From positions 4,425,001 to 4,489,000 of the forward strand of contig NZ_CP045302.1 of the NCBI RefSeq assembly GCF_009363155.1: a DNA stretch of 64,000 bases, written 5' to 3'. The stretch is from Azotobacter salinestris (GTDB lineage Bacteria > Pseudomonadota > Gammaproteobacteria > Pseudomonadales > Pseudomonadaceae). Shown here one piece after another: positions 12,358 through 19,788 of this stretch (within the stretch, counting starts at the first letter, position 1; each line of letters opens with the position of its first letter). Position numbers and translations under genes: made by a program. The notes under the pieces are model-generated. The model ran no database searches. It was given only the letters and a program-made list of their open reading frames with translations, and had not been told where the DNA came from.

Positions 12358-12876
12358 ATGCGCCTGCTGCTCGACACCCTCATCGTGCTCGCCACCGTCG
12401 CCGTGATGGAGGCGGTGGCCTGGGCCTCGCACAAGTACGTGATGCACGGCTGGGGCTGGGGCTGGCACCGCTCGCACCACGAGCCACGCCACGGCCCGTT
12501 CGAGAAGAACGATCTCTATGCGCTGGTATTCGCCGGCCTTGCCATCCTGCTGATCGCCCTGGGCACCGCCGGCCTCTGGCCGCTGCAGTGGATCGGCGCC
12601 GGCATGACCCTCTACGGTCTTCTCTACTTCCTCGCCCACGACGGCCTGGTGCACCGACGCTGGGGGCTGCGCTACGTGCCGCGCAAGGGCTATCTCAAGC
12701 GGCTTTACCAGGCGCACCGGCTGCACCATGCGGTGCCGGGGCGTGACGGCTGCGTCTCCTTCGGCTTCCTGTATGCGCCCAGGCTGGACATCCTCAGGGC
12801 GCAGCTGCGACGCCTGCATGGCGGGTCGCTGCAGGGCGCCGCGACCGGGTCCACAGGCCCGCGGGCCGCGGACTAG
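12358..12876 (+). CDS. crtZ: Beta-carotene 3-hydroxylase
   Basis: Encodes 172 aa, a di-iron membrane hydroxylase that adds 3-OH groups to both beta-ionone rings of beta-carotene to give zeaxanthin. All histidine boxes are present: HKYVMH (25-30), HRSHH (37-41), HDGLVH (94-99) and HRLHH (120-124). Hydrophobic helices lie between them. It is convergent with crtB, and the last 83 nt overlap the crtB 3' end on the other strand, a layout also known in Pantoea-type carotenoid clusters. Because it lies on the plus strand behind apbC, its expression may be separate from the main crt operon. Confidence 0.95.
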   Translation: MRLLLDTLIVLATVAVMEAVAWASHKYVMHGWGWGWHRSHHEPRHGPFEKNDLYALVFAGLAILLIALGTAGLWPLQWIGAGMTLYGLLYFLAHDGLVHRRWGLRYVPRKGYLKRLYQAHRLHHAVPGRDGCVSFGFLYAPRLDILRAQLRRLHGGSLQGAATGSTGPRAAD

Positions 12877-13756
12877 GCCTGCCGAGGCGCGAGACCAGCG
12901 CCTGCAAGCCGCCGACGAAGGCCAGACGCAGCTTGTCCGTCCTGCTCGTGGCCAGGCGCGAGTCCCAGGCAGCGGAGCCGGCCGCCTTCACCCTGATGCC
13001 GATCTGCCGATAGACCGCCCAGGCCGTGGCGACGGCCCAGGCCGAGCGTGGCGGCAGAGTCGCCAATCCGCCGAGCGCCGAGGCGTAGTAGGGCTCGGCT
13101 GCATTCACCAGGCGACCGGCCAGTCGTGCCAGCGCCGGGCGGTGCCGGGGGGCGCTCAGCGCCTCGGGCGGTATGCCGGCTTCGTCCAGCCACTGCGCCG
13201 GCAGGTAGAGGCGGCCGCTGGCGTGGTCGTCGAGGATGTCACGGGCGATGTTGGTCAGCTGGAGGGCCAGGCCTAGGTCGCAGGCGCGATCCAGGATGTC
13301 CTCGTCGCGCACGCCCATGACCAGCGCCATCATCACGCCGACCACCCCGGCGACGTGGTAGCAGTAGTCCAGGGTGTCGGCGAAGCTGTGGTAGCGCCGG
13401 CCCTCCACGTCCATGCGAAAGCCGGCCAGGTGATCGAGCGGGTAGCGCTCGGGAATGCCGTGCCGGCGGACCACCTCCTGCAGCGCGGCGAAGGCGGGGC
13501 TGGCGGGGGGCTCGCCGGCGCAGACGCGGCGGGTCGCCTCCTCGAGCTGGGCGAGACAGGCCGGATCGGCGCCGGGCAGTCCGTTGCCGAAGCCGTGGGA
13601 CTGGCCGTCGATCACATCGTCACAATGCCGGCACCAGGCATAGAGCAGCACCGTGCTGCGCCGGGTCGATGCATCGAACAGCCGGGCGGCGGCGGCGAAG
13701 CTCTTCGAGCCTGCGGCGATGCTCCGGCTGGCGTGTTCGAGTAGGGCGTCGCTCAT
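12794..13756 (-). CDS. crtB: 15-cis-phytoene synthase
   Basis: Encodes 320 aa. Phytoene synthase condenses two GGPP molecules to phytoene, the committed carotenoid step. The two Asp-rich motifs are visible as DDVID (46-50) and LTNIARDILDD (167-177). The RLYLPAQWL segment is typical of the family. The frame is open far upstream, but ATG at 13756 overlaps the crtI stop (ATGA), marking translational coupling. The last roughly 25 residues are a low-complexity Pro/Arg/Ala tail encoded opposite the end of crtZ, so the exact C-terminus is less conserved than the core. Confidence 0.95.
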   Translation of the reverse strand: MSDALLEHASRSIAAGSKSFAAAARLFDASTRRSTVLLYAWCRHCDDVIDGQSHGFGNGLPGADPACLAQLEEATRRVCAGEPPASPAFAALQEVVRRHGIPERYPLDHLAGFRMDVEGRRYHSFADTLDYCYHVAGVVGVMMALVMGVRDEDILDRACDLGLALQLTNIARDILDDHASGRLYLPAQWLDEAGIPPEALSAPRHRPALARLAGRLVNAAEPYYASALGGLATLPPRSAWAVATAWAVYRQIGIRVKAAGSAAWDSRLATSRTDKLRLAFVGGLQALVSRLGRPSPRPAGLWTRSRRPAATRHAGVAAAP

Positions 13757-15243
13757 CCAGTCAGCTCCTCGATCATCAATCCTGCAGTGGCCTTGGCCGA
13801 GCCGACTACCCCGGGCAGGCCGGCGCCCGGGTGGGTGCCGGCGCCGACGATGTAGAGGTTGGCGATCTCGTCGTCGCGGTTGTGCGGACGGAACCAGGCG
13901 CTCTGGATCAAGGTGGGTTCCAGGGAAAAGGCCGAGCCCAGGTGGGCATTCAGCTCGTCGCGAAAATCCAGCGGGGTGAAGGTGCGGCAGGTCACCAGAT
14001 CCTGGCGCAGGTCCGGGATGTAGTGGCGTTCCAGGTAGGCGAGGATGCGGTCGCGGTAGCGCGGCCCTTGCTGCGTCCAGTCGATGGCGGCGCGCCCCAG
14101 ATGCGGCACCGGCGCCAGCACATAGAAGCCGGAGCAGCCCGGGGGTGCCAGCGAGGGATCGGTGACGCAGGGCGCGTGCAGATAGAGGGAGAAGTCCTCG
14201 GGCAGGGCCGTGCCCTTGAAGATTTCCTCGATAAGGCCGCGATAGCGCGGGCCGAAGCACACCGTGTGATGCTGCAGATGTGCGTGCTGGCGCTTCAGGC
14301 CGAAGTAGACGACGAACAGCGACATGCTGAAGCGCTTGCCCGCGAGCCGCCGGCCCTCCCGGCGGCCGCGCTCGTGCTGGCCGAGCAGTTCGCGGTAGGT
14401 GTGCACGACGTCGGCGTTGGAGGCGACGGCATCGGCCGCGAAACGCCGGCCATCGGCGCAGATCGCCGCGTTCAGGCGCTTGCCCTCGGCGGCCAGGTGC
14501 GCCACCGGCGCGTTCAGCTCCAGTCGCCCGCCGAGTTCCTCGAACAGTTGCACCATGGCGCGCACCAGGGCGCCGGTGCCCCCGCGGGGGAACCACACGC
14601 CCCAGCGCCGCTCGAGGGCGTGGATCAGCGCATAGATCGAGGAGGTGGCGAAGGGATTGCCGCCGACCAGCAGCGAATGGAAGGAGAAGGCCTGACGCAG
14701 CTGGTCGTCCGCGATGAAGGACGACACCATCCCGTATACGCTGCGCCAGGCCCGCAGCCGGACCAGCTGCGGCGCGGCCATGACCATGCGCTCGAAGGTC
14801 AGGAAGGGCACGCTGCCGAGCTTCAGGTAACCGGCTTCGAATACCGCCCGGGAGTAATCGAGAAAGCGCCGGTAGCCGTCGACGTCCGCCGGATTGCGCG
14901 CCCGGATCTGGCTGTCCAGCAGGGCCTGGTCGTTGACGTAGTCGAAGCGGCTGCCGTCCTCCCAGCACAGCCGGTAGAAGGGGCTGACCGGCAGCAGCTC
15001 GACGTAGTCGGCCAGGCGCCGGCCGCTCAAGGTAAATAACTCCTCCAGCGCCGAGGGATCGGTGATCACCGTGGGACCGGCATCGAAGACGAAGCCCTGG
15101 TCCTCGTAGACGTAGGCGCGGCCGCCCGGCTTGTCGCGCTTCTCCAGGAGCGTGGTCTGGATCCCGGCGGCCTGCAGTCGGATGGCCAGAGCCAGGCCGC
15201 CGAAGCCGGCGCCGATCACCACGGCGTGTTTCCCCGTGCTCAT
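13753..15243 (-). CDS. crtI: Phytoene desaturase (lycopene-forming)
   Basis: Encodes 496 aa, an FAD enzyme that introduces four double bases-worth of desaturation (four double bonds) into phytoene to make lycopene. The Rossmann FAD motif VIGAGFGGLALAIRLQAAG lies at about 8-26, and the bacterial-type carotenoid dehydrogenase C-terminal signature GAGTHPGAGLPGVVGSAK is intact. ATG at 15243 has an AGGGAG ribosome site 5 nt upstream, inside the crtY 3' end, and gives a family-typical N-terminus. The longer open frame upstream is discarded. It overlaps crtB by 4 nt. Confidence 0.96.
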   Translation of the reverse strand: MSTGKHAVVIGAGFGGLALAIRLQAAGIQTTLLEKRDKPGGRAYVYEDQGFVFDAGPTVITDPSALEELFTLSGRRLADYVELLPVSPFYRLCWEDGSRFDYVNDQALLDSQIRARNPADVDGYRRFLDYSRAVFEAGYLKLGSVPFLTFERMVMAAPQLVRLRAWRSVYGMVSSFIADDQLRQAFSFHSLLVGGNPFATSSIYALIHALERRWGVWFPRGGTGALVRAMVQLFEELGGRLELNAPVAHLAAEGKRLNAAICADGRRFAADAVASNADVVHTYRELLGQHERGRREGRRLAGKRFSMSLFVVYFGLKRQHAHLQHHTVCFGPRYRGLIEEIFKGTALPEDFSLYLHAPCVTDPSLAPPGCSGFYVLAPVPHLGRAAIDWTQQGPRYRDRILAYLERHYIPDLRQDLVTCRTFTPLDFRDELNAHLGSAFSLEPTLIQSAWFRPHNRDDEIANLYIVGAGTHPGAGLPGVVGSAKATAGLMIEELTG

Positions 15244-15244
15244 T

Positions 15245-16414
15245 TCAACTCCCTTGTCGATGCAGGTCCCCGGCCAGCGCCGCCCGCAGCGCCTGGTCGA
15301 GGGGCACCGGCGGCTTGCCGGCGAGGATGCGCAGTTTGTCGCCGGCATGCAGACGGCCGGCGTAGAAGCGCCGGATCAGAGCCTCCGGCAGGCCGTAGAA
15401 GCGCTGCATGACCCGCCAGCGGTCTTCCGGCGCGCCGGCGAGGAACAGCATGCGGTTGAGCAGGCGGAAGAACCCCTGGCGGCGCCACTCGGCGCGCAGG
15501 GTCGCCTGGATTTCTGTAGCCAGACTGGCGGCGTCGAGCTGCGGCAGGGCGGCGATGCGCTCGGCCAGGCGCACCGCATGCGGCAGCGAGTAGCCGGTGG
15601 TGGCGTGAAACAGGCCAGCGGCCAGACCGCTGCACGGCTGGGCGCCCATTTCCCGGCAGAAGCCCTCGAGATCGCCGCTGAGGATGATAGGCAACACGCC
15701 TTGTTCCTCGCGCAGTACCTCCAGGATGCACCAGCCATGCTGCGCAGAGTAGTCGTCGATCTGCGTGCGCAGGGTCGCCGGTGCCAGGCTCGCGCCGTCG
15801 GTGTAGTAGGTGTCCTCGATCAGCAGGCGGTCGGGGCCGAAGGGCAGCAGGTAGACGAACCGGTAGCCTTCGCGCTGGGCGACACCGGCGTCCATCAGCA
15901 CCGGCATGTCCAGCCCGTGTGGCGCCGTCAGGCGTACCTCGCGGCCGAGGAATTTCTGGTAGCCGAGCGCCAGGTGCGGACTGGAACGCGGGCCGCGGCC
16001 GTCGATCACCGCGCGGGCACCGAGGCTGCTGCCGTCCGTCAGCTCCACCCGTTGCGGATTCAGGCTGTGCACCTTGTTGCCCAGCTGCACCTGACCGACG
16101 AGGCGTGCGCACAGCTGGGCATCGAAGTGCGTGGAGGTGATCGACGCATAGCCGCTGCGCAGGATGCGCCGTCGCTCGGGAAAGCGCACTTCGTAACCGG
16201 GCCAGCGGTGACTCACCAGCGGCGCCAGCCAGGCGTGCTGTTGTGCGGTCAGATCATCCTGATGGAACGACCAGGTGTGATTGCCGCCGAGCACCGGGCC
16301 CCGTTCCAGCAGCAGCAGGCGCAGCGCCGGGCGCAGCTCGGCCAGACGCCAGGCGATCAGGCCGTTGGCCAGGCCGCCGCCGACCAGGATGAGGTCGTAG
16401 TCAGGCCGCGGCAT
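15245..16414 (-). CDS. crtY: Lycopene beta-cyclase
   Basis: Encodes 389 aa of the CrtY type. It cyclises both ends of lycopene to beta-carotene. The dinucleotide-binding motif YDLILVGGGLANGLIAWRL (about 6-24) and the downstream GGNHTWSFHQDDL match proteobacterial CrtY. Placed between crtX and crtI, its start lies inside the crtX 3' end (14-nt overlap), and its stop is 1 nt before the crtI ATG. Confidence 0.95.
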   Translation of the reverse strand: MPRPDYDLILVGGGLANGLIAWRLAELRPALRLLLLERGPVLGGNHTWSFHQDDLTAQQHAWLAPLVSHRWPGYEVRFPERRRILRSGYASITSTHFDAQLCARLVGQVQLGNKVHSLNPQRVELTDGSSLGARAVIDGRGPRSSPHLALGYQKFLGREVRLTAPHGLDMPVLMDAGVAQREGYRFVYLLPFGPDRLLIEDTYYTDGASLAPATLRTQIDDYSAQHGWCILEVLREEQGVLPIILSGDLEGFCREMGAQPCSGLAAGLFHATTGYSLPHAVRLAERIAALPQLDAASLATEIQATLRAEWRRQGFFRLLNRMLFLAGAPEDRWRVMQRFYGLPEALIRRFYAGRLHAGDKLRILAGKPPVPLDQALRAALAGDLHRQGS

Positions 16415-17684
16415 GGAGAACCGGCCGGCCGCTTTTCAGCACCGCCTCGACGATGTCGGCGGCGCGTTCGACGCCGCCCGCCTGCCGCGCCTCGGCGCCG
16501 ATCCGGGTGGCATGCTCGGCGAAGGCCGGCTCGTCCAGTAGCCGGCGCAGCAGGCGACGCAGCCTGCTGCGCCGGGCCAGCAGCGGTGAGGCACGCAGCC
16601 CGGCGCCGGCATACACCACCCGGGCGGCGATCGCCGGCTGATCGAAGGCGATCGGCAGGGCAAGCATCGGCGTGCCGGCGACCAGGGCGTCGAGCACGGT
16701 GTTCAGTCCGGCATGGGTGATCGCCACGTCGGCTTGGGCCAGGGCCGCACACTGCGGGGCGAAGTCGGTCACCCAGGTAGCGCCCGCCGCGTGCAGTGCA
16801 CGCACCTGGCCGGGGTCCAATCGGCCGCAGTGCGCCAGCAGGAGTTGCAGATCCAGGTCGCGACAGGCTGCGGCCATACGCCGAAACAGGCCGAAACGGC
16901 CGCCCTGCAGGGTGCCGAGCGAAGCGAAGACGAACGGCCGCCCAGGGTCGATTGGCAGGTCCAGCGGCGCCGCACCCTGGTTCGGTGAGCGCAGCGGGCC
17001 GACCGGGTGGAAGTGCGCCGGGGCCTCCTGGCGCGGAAAGTCGAAGCCGGCGAGGGTCTGGCTGATCTGGGCGAAGGGCGACAGGCACTGGTGCAGGCTG
17101 TCGCGCGGCGGCAGGCCGAAGGCCTCGGCATGCCTGGCGATGATCCTCCCATGGGGCCGCATCAGGTAGTCGTAGACCCGGCTGCTGCTGCGGTTGAGAT
17201 GCTTGCCGAAGGGTGAGACGGCATAGCCCCAGGGCATCACCGGCAGCGGCAGGCGCGGCTCGCGGTTGACCGGCAGGGCGCAGGCCACCGAAACCCAGGG
17301 CAGGCCCAGGTATTCGGCGAGCAGCCCGCTAGCGGCCTCCATCTGGTCGGCGATCAGCGCCTCGACGCCGAGCGCGCGCAGCAGCTGTGGTCCTTCGCGG
17401 CAGAGCATGTCGGTGCCGTGCGCCATGTCCTGGATCACCCTGCGCAGGCCGAACGGGGCGCCGGGATGCCCGGCATGGGCGATGAGCGTGGCGAGCGAGC
17501 CGGGCGGATGCGAGGCCTGGCCGAGGGCGGCGAACTCGACCTGCGGCTGGCGCAGCAGGGCGCGGGCATCCTCCTGCTGGACGAAGGTGACCCGGTGCCC
17601 GCGCATGATCAGGCATTCGGCCAATGCTTCCAGTGCCCAGAAATGGCCGGCGAAAGGTGGTGCGATGACGGCGAAGTGGCTCAT
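16401..17684 (-). CDS. crtX: Zeaxanthin glucosyltransferase
   Basis: Encodes 427 aa, a GT1-family enzyme that transfers glucose from UDP-glucose to the hydroxyls of zeaxanthin. The N-terminus MSHFAVIAPPFAGHFWALEAL is CrtX-like. The C-terminal donor-binding region includes FAPQCAALAQADVAITHAGL followed by DALVAGTPMLALPIAFDQP, the UDP-sugar-binding signature. A GGAG ribosome site sits 7 nt before the ATG. It lies 16 nt after idi in the operon. Its presence predicts glycosylated, more polar end products. Confidence 0.94.
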   Translation of the reverse strand: MSHFAVIAPPFAGHFWALEALAECLIMRGHRVTFVQQEDARALLRQPQVEFAALGQASHPPGSLATLIAHAGHPGAPFGLRRVIQDMAHGTDMLCREGPQLLRALGVEALIADQMEAASGLLAEYLGLPWVSVACALPVNREPRLPLPVMPWGYAVSPFGKHLNRSSSRVYDYLMRPHGRIIARHAEAFGLPPRDSLHQCLSPFAQISQTLAGFDFPRQEAPAHFHPVGPLRSPNQGAAPLDLPIDPGRPFVFASLGTLQGGRFGLFRRMAAACRDLDLQLLLAHCGRLDPGQVRALHAAGATWVTDFAPQCAALAQADVAITHAGLNTVLDALVAGTPMLALPIAFDQPAIAARVVYAGAGLRASPLLARRSRLRRLLRRLLDEPAFAEHATRIGAEARQAGGVERAADIVEAVLKSGRPVLHAAA

Positions 17685-17700: not shown

Positions 17701-18744
17701 CTAGTGCGGCGGCGCTGCCTGCCGTATGCGCGCCAGGCGCAGGGCCGCCAGGTCCGCCGAGCCGGTGCAGAAGCAGGCGATGCGCAACTGCTCGATGATC
17801 ACGTTGAAGTGCTCGATCACCGCCTCGCTGGAGTGCAGCGCGCCGGACAGCGCGGCGGCGGCCTGCCCAGCCAGATCGGCGCCCAGGCGGATCGCCTTGG
17901 CCACATCCACGCCGTCGCGTATCCCGCCCGAGGCGATCAGCGGCGTCCCCGGGCACGCCTGGCGCACCTCGCGCAGCGCCTCGGCGGTGGGGATGCCCCA
18001 GTCGGCGAAGGCCAGCGCGACCTGCTTCCGGGCCGGGGTGCGCGCCCGTTGCGCCTCGACCGTGACCCAGTTGGTGCCGCCGGCGCCGGCGACGTCGATC
18101 ACCGCGACGCCGGCTTCGACCAGGCGCCGCGCGACCGGGGCGCTGATGCCGGCGCCGACCTCCTTGACCACCAGCGGCACCTCGAGGCGGGCGGTGAGCC
18201 GGCCGATGGCGTTGAGCACGCCGCGCCAGTCGCGGTCGCCTTCCGGCTGCACGGCTTCCTGCAGTGGATTCAGGTGCACGATCAGGGCGTCTGCCTCGAG
18301 CATGTCCACCGCCCGCCGTGCTTCCTCCAGGCCGAAGCCGGCAGCCAGCTGCGCCGCGCCGATATTGGCCAGCAGCGGCACGTCCGGGGCCAGCTGGCGC
18401 AGCTGCCGGGTCAGGCCGTGGTCGGCGCCGGTTTCCAGGGCGATGCGCTGGGAGCCGACGCCCAGGGCGATGCCGAGCGCCTGTGCCGCTTCGGCCAGAT
18501 GCCGGTTGATGGTCGCCGCCCGCGCGGGACCGCCGGTCATGGAGCTGATCAGCAGCGGCGCACGTAGGGGGCGGCCGAGGAAACTCGTGCCCAGATCGAT
18601 CTGCTGCAGGTGCAACTCCGGTAGCGCGCAATGCTCGAAGGCAAAGGCGGCGAAGCCGGTATTGCCGTGCCGATTGGTCCGGGCCGGGTCGAGGACGATA
18701 TCCAGATGGTCGTTCTTGCGCGCCGCCAGTTCGTCTCCTGCCAT
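17701..18744 (-). CDS. fni: Type 2 isopentenyl-diphosphate delta-isomerase (FMN-dependent)
   Basis: Encodes 347 aa. It interconverts IPP and DMAPP, balancing precursors for GGPP synthesis, and uses reduced FMN plus Mg. The N-terminal [10 protein letters not shown], the SSMTGG phosphate loop, [14 protein letters not shown] and the C-terminal [20 protein letters not shown] flavin-phosphate site are all recognisable. ATG at 18744 ([14 protein letters not shown]) is chosen over the longer open frame, which would run through the promoter. It is the first gene of idi-crtX-crtY-crtI-crtB and diverges from crtE. Confidence 0.95.
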
Positions 18745-18802
18745 CGCTGTTCCCTGGTTCGGTGGAGTGGGACTGCGGGGTCGGGAAATCTTTCCGTCAG
18801 GA

Positions 18803-18828
18803 TTGTACAGAATTAGAAATATGTACAA
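18803..18828. promoter_or_regulatory. Putative LitR/CarH-type operator in divergent idi/crtE promoter
   Basis: A perfect inverted repeat TTGTACA (18803-18809) and TGTACAA (18822-18828) gives TGTACA-N12-TGTACA. This is the form I recall for LitR-family (MerR, B12/light-sensing) sites in Pseudomonas putida, and also fits the TGT-N12-ACA outline of PpsR/CrtJ sites. The half-sites overlap promoter-like hexamers: toward idi TTGTAC, 15 nt, TACAAT; toward crtE TTGTAC, 14 nt, TACAAG. Binding would plausibly block both promoters. No regulator gene of this type is in the window. Confidence 0.6.
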
Positions 18829-18885
18829 GAATTTTAGCATTCTTTCTTCCGCCCGCCTTTTCAGAAAACGGAGTTTCTGGACCTT

Positions 18886-19788
18886 ATGGCAACTTCACTT
18901 GTGCCACCCCAAGGTGACACCTTCGCCGGCGACCTCGGCGCGCTGCGTGGGCGGATCGACCGGCGCCTGGCGCATCTGCTGTCCACTTCCGCGGATGAGA
19001 GCGACTTGATCGGCACGGCGATGAAGGCTGCGCTGCTCTCGCCTGGCAAGCGCGTACGTCCGCTGATAGTGGTGCTGGCAGGAAGCCAGCTGGGCGCCCG
19101 CGAGGCGCCGCTGCTGGACCTGGGGTGCGCGCTGGAGATGGTCCATGCCGCCTCCCTGGTGCTCGACGACATGCCGTGCATGGACGATGCGCGCCTGCGC
19201 CGGGGCCTGCCGACCGTGCATGTGCGCTTCGGCGAGGATATCGCCGTGCTGACGGCGGTGGCGCTGCTCGGCCAGGCCTTCAAGGTGATTTCCAGTGCGT
19301 CCGAGCTGCCGTCGTTGCTGCGTACCCGGCTGGTCGGCGTGCTCGCCGACGCGGTGGGGGCGCAGGGGCTGGTGCGCGGCCAGTATCAGGATCTGCGCGA
19401 AGGCGGCCGGCCGCGCCGGGTCGGCGAGATCGCCGAAACCAATCACCTGAAGACCGGGGCGCTGTTCGCCGCGGCCCTGGAGATGGCGGCTCAGGTCGCG
19501 CATGCCCGCGATGACGTGCGCATGACCCTGCGCGAGGCGGCGCTCGAGCTGGGGCAGGCCTTCCAACTGTACGACGACCTCTGCGACCGCGCGTCGGATG
19601 CGCCACTGCGCAAGGACCTGGGCAAGGATGCCGGCAAGTCGACCCTGGTCGCCCTGCTCGGGCAGGAAGCGGCCAGACAGCGTCTGTACGGGCACGTGCA
19701 ACGCATCGATACCCTGCTGAGTGGCGTGTACGGGCCGGATTGCCTGCTCCTGCGGCTTCTTTGCCTGCTGTTTCCGCGTCTGTACTAG
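18886..19788 (+). CDS. crtE: Geranylgeranyl diphosphate synthase
   Basis: Encodes 300 aa of the short-chain trans-prenyltransferase family, making GGPP for phytoene synthase. The first Asp-rich motif is DDMPCMDD, with [12 protein letters not shown] following. The second is DDLCDRASD, and [13 protein letters not shown] is the substrate-binding segment. The region ahead of the first Asp motif is of CrtE type. It is divergent from idi and shares the putative TGTACA operator region. The ATG has a distant GGAG (12 nt). In Pantoea-type clusters crtE usually leads the same operon; here it is split off. Confidence 0.94.

Follow-up and report, generated by a model that had tools for sequence, protein, structure and literature searches.

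A putative LitR-type operator in the divergent carotenoid promoter of Azotobacter salinestris, with a predicted place in a small photoprotection regulon

The carotenoid genes of Azotobacter salinestris leave in both directions from one short gap, and a palindrome in this gap raises the question of which regulator reads it and what signal that regulator answers. A sequence-only reading of the window (the whole stretch of 64,000 nucleotides analysed, positions 4,425,001 to 4,489,000 of contig NZ_CP045302.1) had proposed a switch of the LitR/CarH type, governed by light and B12 and carried by a distant regulator. The crt cluster is flanked by metG-apbC-like genes and dcd, as judged from Pfam matches, and idi is the first gene of its minus-strand arm, idi-crtX-crtY-crtI-crtB. 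In window coordinates, the features are as follows:

12358..12876, plus strand: crtZ-like hydroxylase (PF04116, E = 1.6e-11), convergent with crtB and, by its position, outside operator control
12794..13756, minus strand: crtB, phytoene synthase (NF042419, 445 bits, slightly under the cut-off of 480)
13753..15243, minus strand: crtI, phytoene desaturase (TIGR02734, 732 bits, cut-off 238)
15245..16414, minus strand: crtY, lycopene beta-cyclase (TIGR01789, 511 bits, cut-off 215)
16401..17684, minus strand: crtX, glycosyltransferase, by context a zeaxanthin glucosyltransferase (glycosyltransferase families, below cut-off; place in the cluster conserved)
17701..18744, minus strand: idi, type 2 isopentenyl-diphosphate isomerase (TIGR02151, 382 bits, cut-off 281)
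18745..18885, no strand: divergent crtE/idi promoter region with the operator, 141 bp (crtE ATG at 18886 on the plus strand, idi ATG at 18744 on the minus strand)
18803..18828, no strand: putative LitR-type operator, TTGTACA-N12-TGTACAA, read from the sequence (core TGTACA-N12-TGTACA at 18804-18827)
18886..19788, plus strand: crtE, polyprenyl/GGPP synthase (FPP synthase and CrtE family matches, under the curated cut-offs)

As a side observation, dcd also lies near the crt cluster of a second genus (L048, that is G040, of genus g11), which hints at a common insertion site.

Read directly, the operator letters are TTGTACA GAATTAGAAATA TGTACAA; the arms pair over 7 bp and the spacer adds three dyad-symmetric pairs, which bears out the perfect inverted repeat claimed for the shared crt promoter region. 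Because TGTACA is itself palindromic, its two copies can equally be read as a direct repeat. The exact TGTACA-N12-TGTACA pattern occurs once within the window, and with up to two mismatches four times, a count reached in none of 100 dinucleotide shuffles. The accompanying claim that the repeat overlaps promoter-like hexamers on both strands proved weak: no sigma-70-like pair scoring at least 9/12 with a spacing of 16-18 was found at the operator, and the best four pairs score 8/12, with the hexamers 15 bp apart in two cases. The half-site and its spacing had also been likened to LitR operators of Pseudomonas putida, and they do agree with the operators of P. putida and P. mendocina in PMC9758184. 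In particular, the crt site matches exactly the class II LitR operator consensus T(G/A)TACA-N12-TGTA(C/T)A, given for the PplR1-3 regulon of P. putida KT2440 (Sumi 2020, via PMC9758184).

Across the genome (5,292,366 bases, 3 contigs), TRTACA-N12-TGTAYA is found exactly three times and its reversed-pattern control not at all. One site is that at crt, and the other two, 51 bp apart, stand directly upstream of a rudS-litR-phrB cluster on the same contig, 2.7 Mb away. The search for further copies that the sequence-only reading had called for was thus rewarded with two, both ahead of a LitR gene, and its expectation of a distant regulator holds. With one mismatch allowed there are 15 sites, the three exact ones included, against 10 for the reversed control; therefore nothing beyond the three exact sites rises above background, and the one-mismatch sites were rejected as extra members of the regulon. 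That the crt palindrome arose by chance and has no function is most improbable. The sequence around the site is indeed AT-rich, which makes such hexamers more probable there than elsewhere in the 66% G+C window, yet composition predicts about 0.1 sites per genome against the three found, and TGTACA is about 30-fold enriched in the crt promoters of Pseudomonadaceae.

The gene behind the tandem sites encodes 2-thiouracil desulfurase and DUF1722 domains, the architecture of RudS, a tRNA 4-thiouridine desulfidase (PMC11417400). Downstream follow a MerR protein of 314 residues, LitR, and a DNA photolyase, phrB. This order matches the neighbourhood of class II LitR, gene order alone being read here; pmlR1 sits in a light-inducible cluster with phrB (PMC9758184), and an operon of PhrB, LitR and RudS is named in PMC11417400. 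Four MerR_1 proteins were found in the genome, of which LitR alone has a long C-terminal part. The other three are short, with 121, 147 and at most 177 residues, and a family-wide LitR search likewise returned one match in A. salinestris, so that the 314-residue protein is the only gene of the LitR/CarH type found.

Comparison with relatives ties the motif to this regulator. Among named rudS-litR loci (the best 80 of at least 593 candidates), rudS adjoins litR in 75, and 71 of these 75 carry an exact site no more than 250 bp upstream of rudS, with two sites in 53; the same best 80 of at least 593 hold 142 sites, against 0 matches of the reversed control. Among 398 Pseudomonadaceae genomes, drawn from a larger group and not independent of one another, 370 have a LitR match (E <= 1e-25), and 340 of these carry at least one exact site; of the 28 that lack a match, some of them incomplete, six do so (Fisher p = 8e-17). 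These 28 are spread over eight genera; 20 were named by search and eight by absence from the match list. The remaining 30 of the 370 have a LitR match and no exact site. Biochemical work on P. mendocina points the same way: PmlR2 footprints cover two sites written TGTACA-N12-TGTACA, and its binding to one of them was abolished when both half-sites were replaced (PMC9758184). The TRTACA-N12-TGTAYA motif belongs to LitR, and we predict, with good confidence, that the crt palindrome is an operator of the genome's single class II LitR.

The class of this LitR bears on the proposed role of B12. Sequence and model agree on a MerR winged helix followed by a four-helix bundle, as in LitR/CarH; the AlphaFold model (mean pLDDT 83.5) finds its best PDB matches among CarH structures, and a profile of five Azotobacter LitRs aligns with CarH positions 16-252. 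Within this alignment, the B12-handling positions of CarH, Trp131, Glu141, His142 and the cobalt-ligating His177, are occupied in A. salinestris LitR by Glu, Arg, Ala and Ile, and the region opposite His177 reads QPIEPGLWL. No Pfam B12-binding domain matches the A. salinestris protein even at E <= 10; one of the other aligned Azotobacter LitRs does have a B12-binding_2 match. Because the B12-handling residues are replaced and the domain match is absent, A. salinestris LitR is class II-like and, as far as its sequence tells, without a functional B12-binding domain. Of the MerR protein with a B12-binding domain that had been sought, the LitR-type MerR exists and the domain match is missing, and the B12 part of the proposed switch fails.

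A classical light/B12 switch, in which a class I CarH/LitR would act with adenosyl-B12, is accordingly very improbable and largely refuted. It could appeal to the three-part CarH fold predicted by the model, to the B12-binding_2 match in a congeneric LitR, and to the authors of the RudS work, who call class II LitR adenosyl-B12-dependent (PMC11417400). To the contrary, B12 was not required in P. putida (PMC9758184), and a second LitR-like gene that might fill the role was not found in the A. salinestris genome. CarH of Thermus thermophilus resembles our LitR in fold, and its class is involved in carotenoid gene control; CarH, however, is an AdoB12 sensor that reads 11-bp direct repeats (PMC8156234), whereas A. 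salinestris LitR has other residues at the B12 positions and its site is palindromic, with 12 bp between the half-sites. CarA of Myxococcus xanthus is likewise a CarH-like repressor of carotenoid genes; it works without B12 (PMC8156234) and is released by the antirepressor CarS.

Whether the site is a general property of carotenoid promoters was read from the relatives with CrtY (92 of the 398 genomes). Divergence of crtE and idi is the rule, in 91 of the 92 clusters inspected, and 91 gaps were compared after G019, with no crtE or idi in its fetched stretch, had been dropped; many of the 91 come from near-identical relatives. Absence of the repeat from orthologous crt promoters, named in the sequence-only reading as evidence against it, holds in part: the exact N12 site stands in only six of the gaps (A. 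salinestris, G002, G226, G063, G128 and G365), with one mismatch in that of G040, and two or more half-sites (TGTACA, TATACA or TGTATA) in 55. TGTACA itself occurs 99 times, in 58 of the gaps, against about 3.4 expected from shuffles, and 26 gaps have no half-site. Half-site spacings include 3, 5, 11, 12, 13, 16, 23 and 25, among others, and a quick CrtI tree requires no fewer than 23 changes of spacing class and nine in the presence of a half-site pair; L048 was assigned to the N11-13 spacing class by hand, as one of its half-sites has a mismatch. Row set A2 comprises 28 of 39 rows, one having been left out for a stop codon and ten by choice. Apart from genus g6 and the greater part of g5, the element thus appears, in these promoter sequences, widespread at crt, and its geometry is loose. 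The gap of G002, also an Azotobacter, has a single spacer substitution and a single inserted base relative to that of A. salinestris, with both half-sites intact, a near-identity that is no independent evidence of selection.

Genus g6 departs from this pattern, with a LitR match in 13 of 13 crt genomes, TGTACA at crt in none of them, and no exact site anywhere in nine. Separately, the two g6 crt promoters that were inspected for repeats (L107:6495-6584 and L061:6522-6627) each hold two copies of a GACCTTTCGTCGGTC-like sequence, separated by 75-89 bp, which another regulator might bind. Two associations were not retained. LitR presence was dropped as a predictor of TGTACA at crt, with only three of the 91 crt genomes lacking LitR and TGTACA in one of these three. 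An excess of N11-13 spacing at crt with a single LitR (13/18 versus 8/57; 75 genomes, g6 and LitR-less genomes left out, copy numbers from the family-wide LitR search) was not significant on an independent-pairs test and is not claimed.

Another TGTACA-reading factor might control crt, its likeness to the LitR operator being convergent. The variable half-site spacing among crt promoters would suit such a factor, as would G102, which has TGTACA-N3-TGTACA at crt and no LitR match. We nonetheless find it unlikely, since crt and the litR cluster are the only places in the A. salinestris genome that have the exact N12 site, which is difficult to put down to coincidence. PpsR/CrtJ operators read TGT-N12-ACA, and the letters of the crt gap do not follow this pattern.

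We return to class II LitR as the reader of the site, for which the closest precedent is the PmlR2/PmSB-LOV system of P. mendocina (Maruyama 2022, PMC9758184), with a class II LitR and an identical operator, TGTACA-N12-TGTACA. PmlR2 represses its promoter in vitro (PMC9758184). By analogy, LitR of A. salinestris would occupy the crt operator as a repressor and block both crtE and idi-crtXYIB, and its release would let crt, rudS, litR and phrB rise together, so that carotenoids, a photolyase and a tRNA 4-thiouridine eraser would form one small photoprotection regulon. Repression of both crt arms by class II LitR at this operator, within a shared photoprotection regulon, is on our analysis the best explanation and a strongly favoured one. 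Binding of LitR to the crt copy, the repression itself, and light or a light-related stress as the releasing signal are all inferred.

This signal is an uncertain part of the scheme. PmlR2 is released by the short blue-light LOV protein PmSB-LOV (PMC9758184). The motif NCRFLQ gave no match in four Azotobacter genomes, and its matches elsewhere were LOV kinases, LOV-GGDEF proteins and chance matches. Because the short LOVs of this group read DCRFLQ, the search was redone with that motif and with a real short LOV protein. DCRFLQ has no DNA match in the A. salinestris genome, and the protein query returned five matches there, all without the photoactive Cys, the best being a PAS domain at 38% identity and the second-best protein probably NifL, by its size and genus. 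Short LOV is absent from A. salinestris, G002 and G003, three of the four Azotobacter genomes, and BLUF from all four. In the fourth, A. beijerinckii DSM 378 (G001), a short LOV lies between a second litR and rudS-litR-phrB. As a side observation on light receptors, five g6 genomes (G008, G024, G037, G047 and G058) have an NCRFLQ match on the crtY contig, about 11-25 kb from crtY; in L144, L146 and L160, the three loci inspected, this match resembles a LOV histidine kinase.

Light induction in A. salinestris is not to be assumed, because LOV knock-outs of P. putida are reported to transcribe constitutively at a low level, in darkness as in light (PMC9758184). It is possible, at a little below an even chance, that the LitR operator is real and the switch is light-blind in A. 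salinestris, its regulon fixed at a low level or answering a cue other than light. The knock-outs would be the model for such a state, and A. salinestris, in which neither a short LOV, BLUF nor a second LitR was found, could be its natural counterpart next to A. beijerinckii, whose cluster is accompanied by both a short LOV and another LitR. Set against this, the three Azotobacter genomes without LOV keep litR, rudS and phrB intact, at dN/dS values far under 1 (0.31-0.37 for litR, with dN of 0.013-0.026 in its DNA-binding part), and the sites precede genes for protection from light. We put the odds that crt control is light-dependent in A. salinestris at about even.

The most likely arrangement is thus a crt cluster within a compact LitR photoprotection regulon, with either another sensor as its input or none that sees light. 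Release would come from a light or photo-oxidative sensor beyond the known LOV and BLUF types, or from nothing related to light. A bolder version, which we offer tentatively and find rather doubtful, is that a LitR deprived of both LOV partner and B12 pocket continues to control a minimal regulon of carotenoids, photolyase and tRNA 4-thiouridine eraser. Its input would be a form of light or photo-oxidative sensing not yet recognised, perhaps by LitR itself or by an unrelated antirepressor, and pseudomonad crt clusters would have reshuffled the TGTACA half-sites of this one regulator time and again.

Compared with the known class II systems, the A. salinestris arrangement shares with P. mendocina a cluster with litR and phrB, light-inducible there, and differs in that release in P. 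mendocina is by a short LOV that was not found here, and in the crt site itself, 'crt' and 'phytoene' being absent from the main text of PMC9758184. With PplR1-3 of P. putida KT2440 it has in common the operator consensus, photolyase and litR as targets there, and independence of B12 as reported there; P. putida, however, has three LitRs and two LOVs, whereas A. salinestris has one LitR, no short LOV and a carotenoid cluster that bears the site (PMC9758184 for P. putida). Pseudomonad carotenoid synthesis would in this way be tied to the class II LitR regulon, and the LOV-less Azotobacter appear, from their gene content, to be natural mutants in which the repressor and its operators are kept and the one known light input is absent. 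The broader association of rudS with carotenoid genes is already in print, since PMC11417400 reports that rudS genes are often in light-responsive operons including photolyases or carotenoid clusters. The specific link between LitR and carotenoid genes was not found in the top-ranked titles and abstract beginnings on LitR and carotenoids in Pseudomonas or Stutzerimonas and on light and carotenoids in Azotobacter, a coverage outside which most subscription journals lie.

One further observation concerns the history of the rudS-litR-phrB module. A. beijerinckii has an orphan N12 site (L138:9600-9623, on G001:C76) between a murI-like gene and an FAD oxidoreductase, and the other neighbours of this oxidoreductase, an epimerase and a ferrochelatase, are those found upstream of rudS-litR-phrB in A. 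salinestris, so that the orphan site looks like the scar of a departed module.
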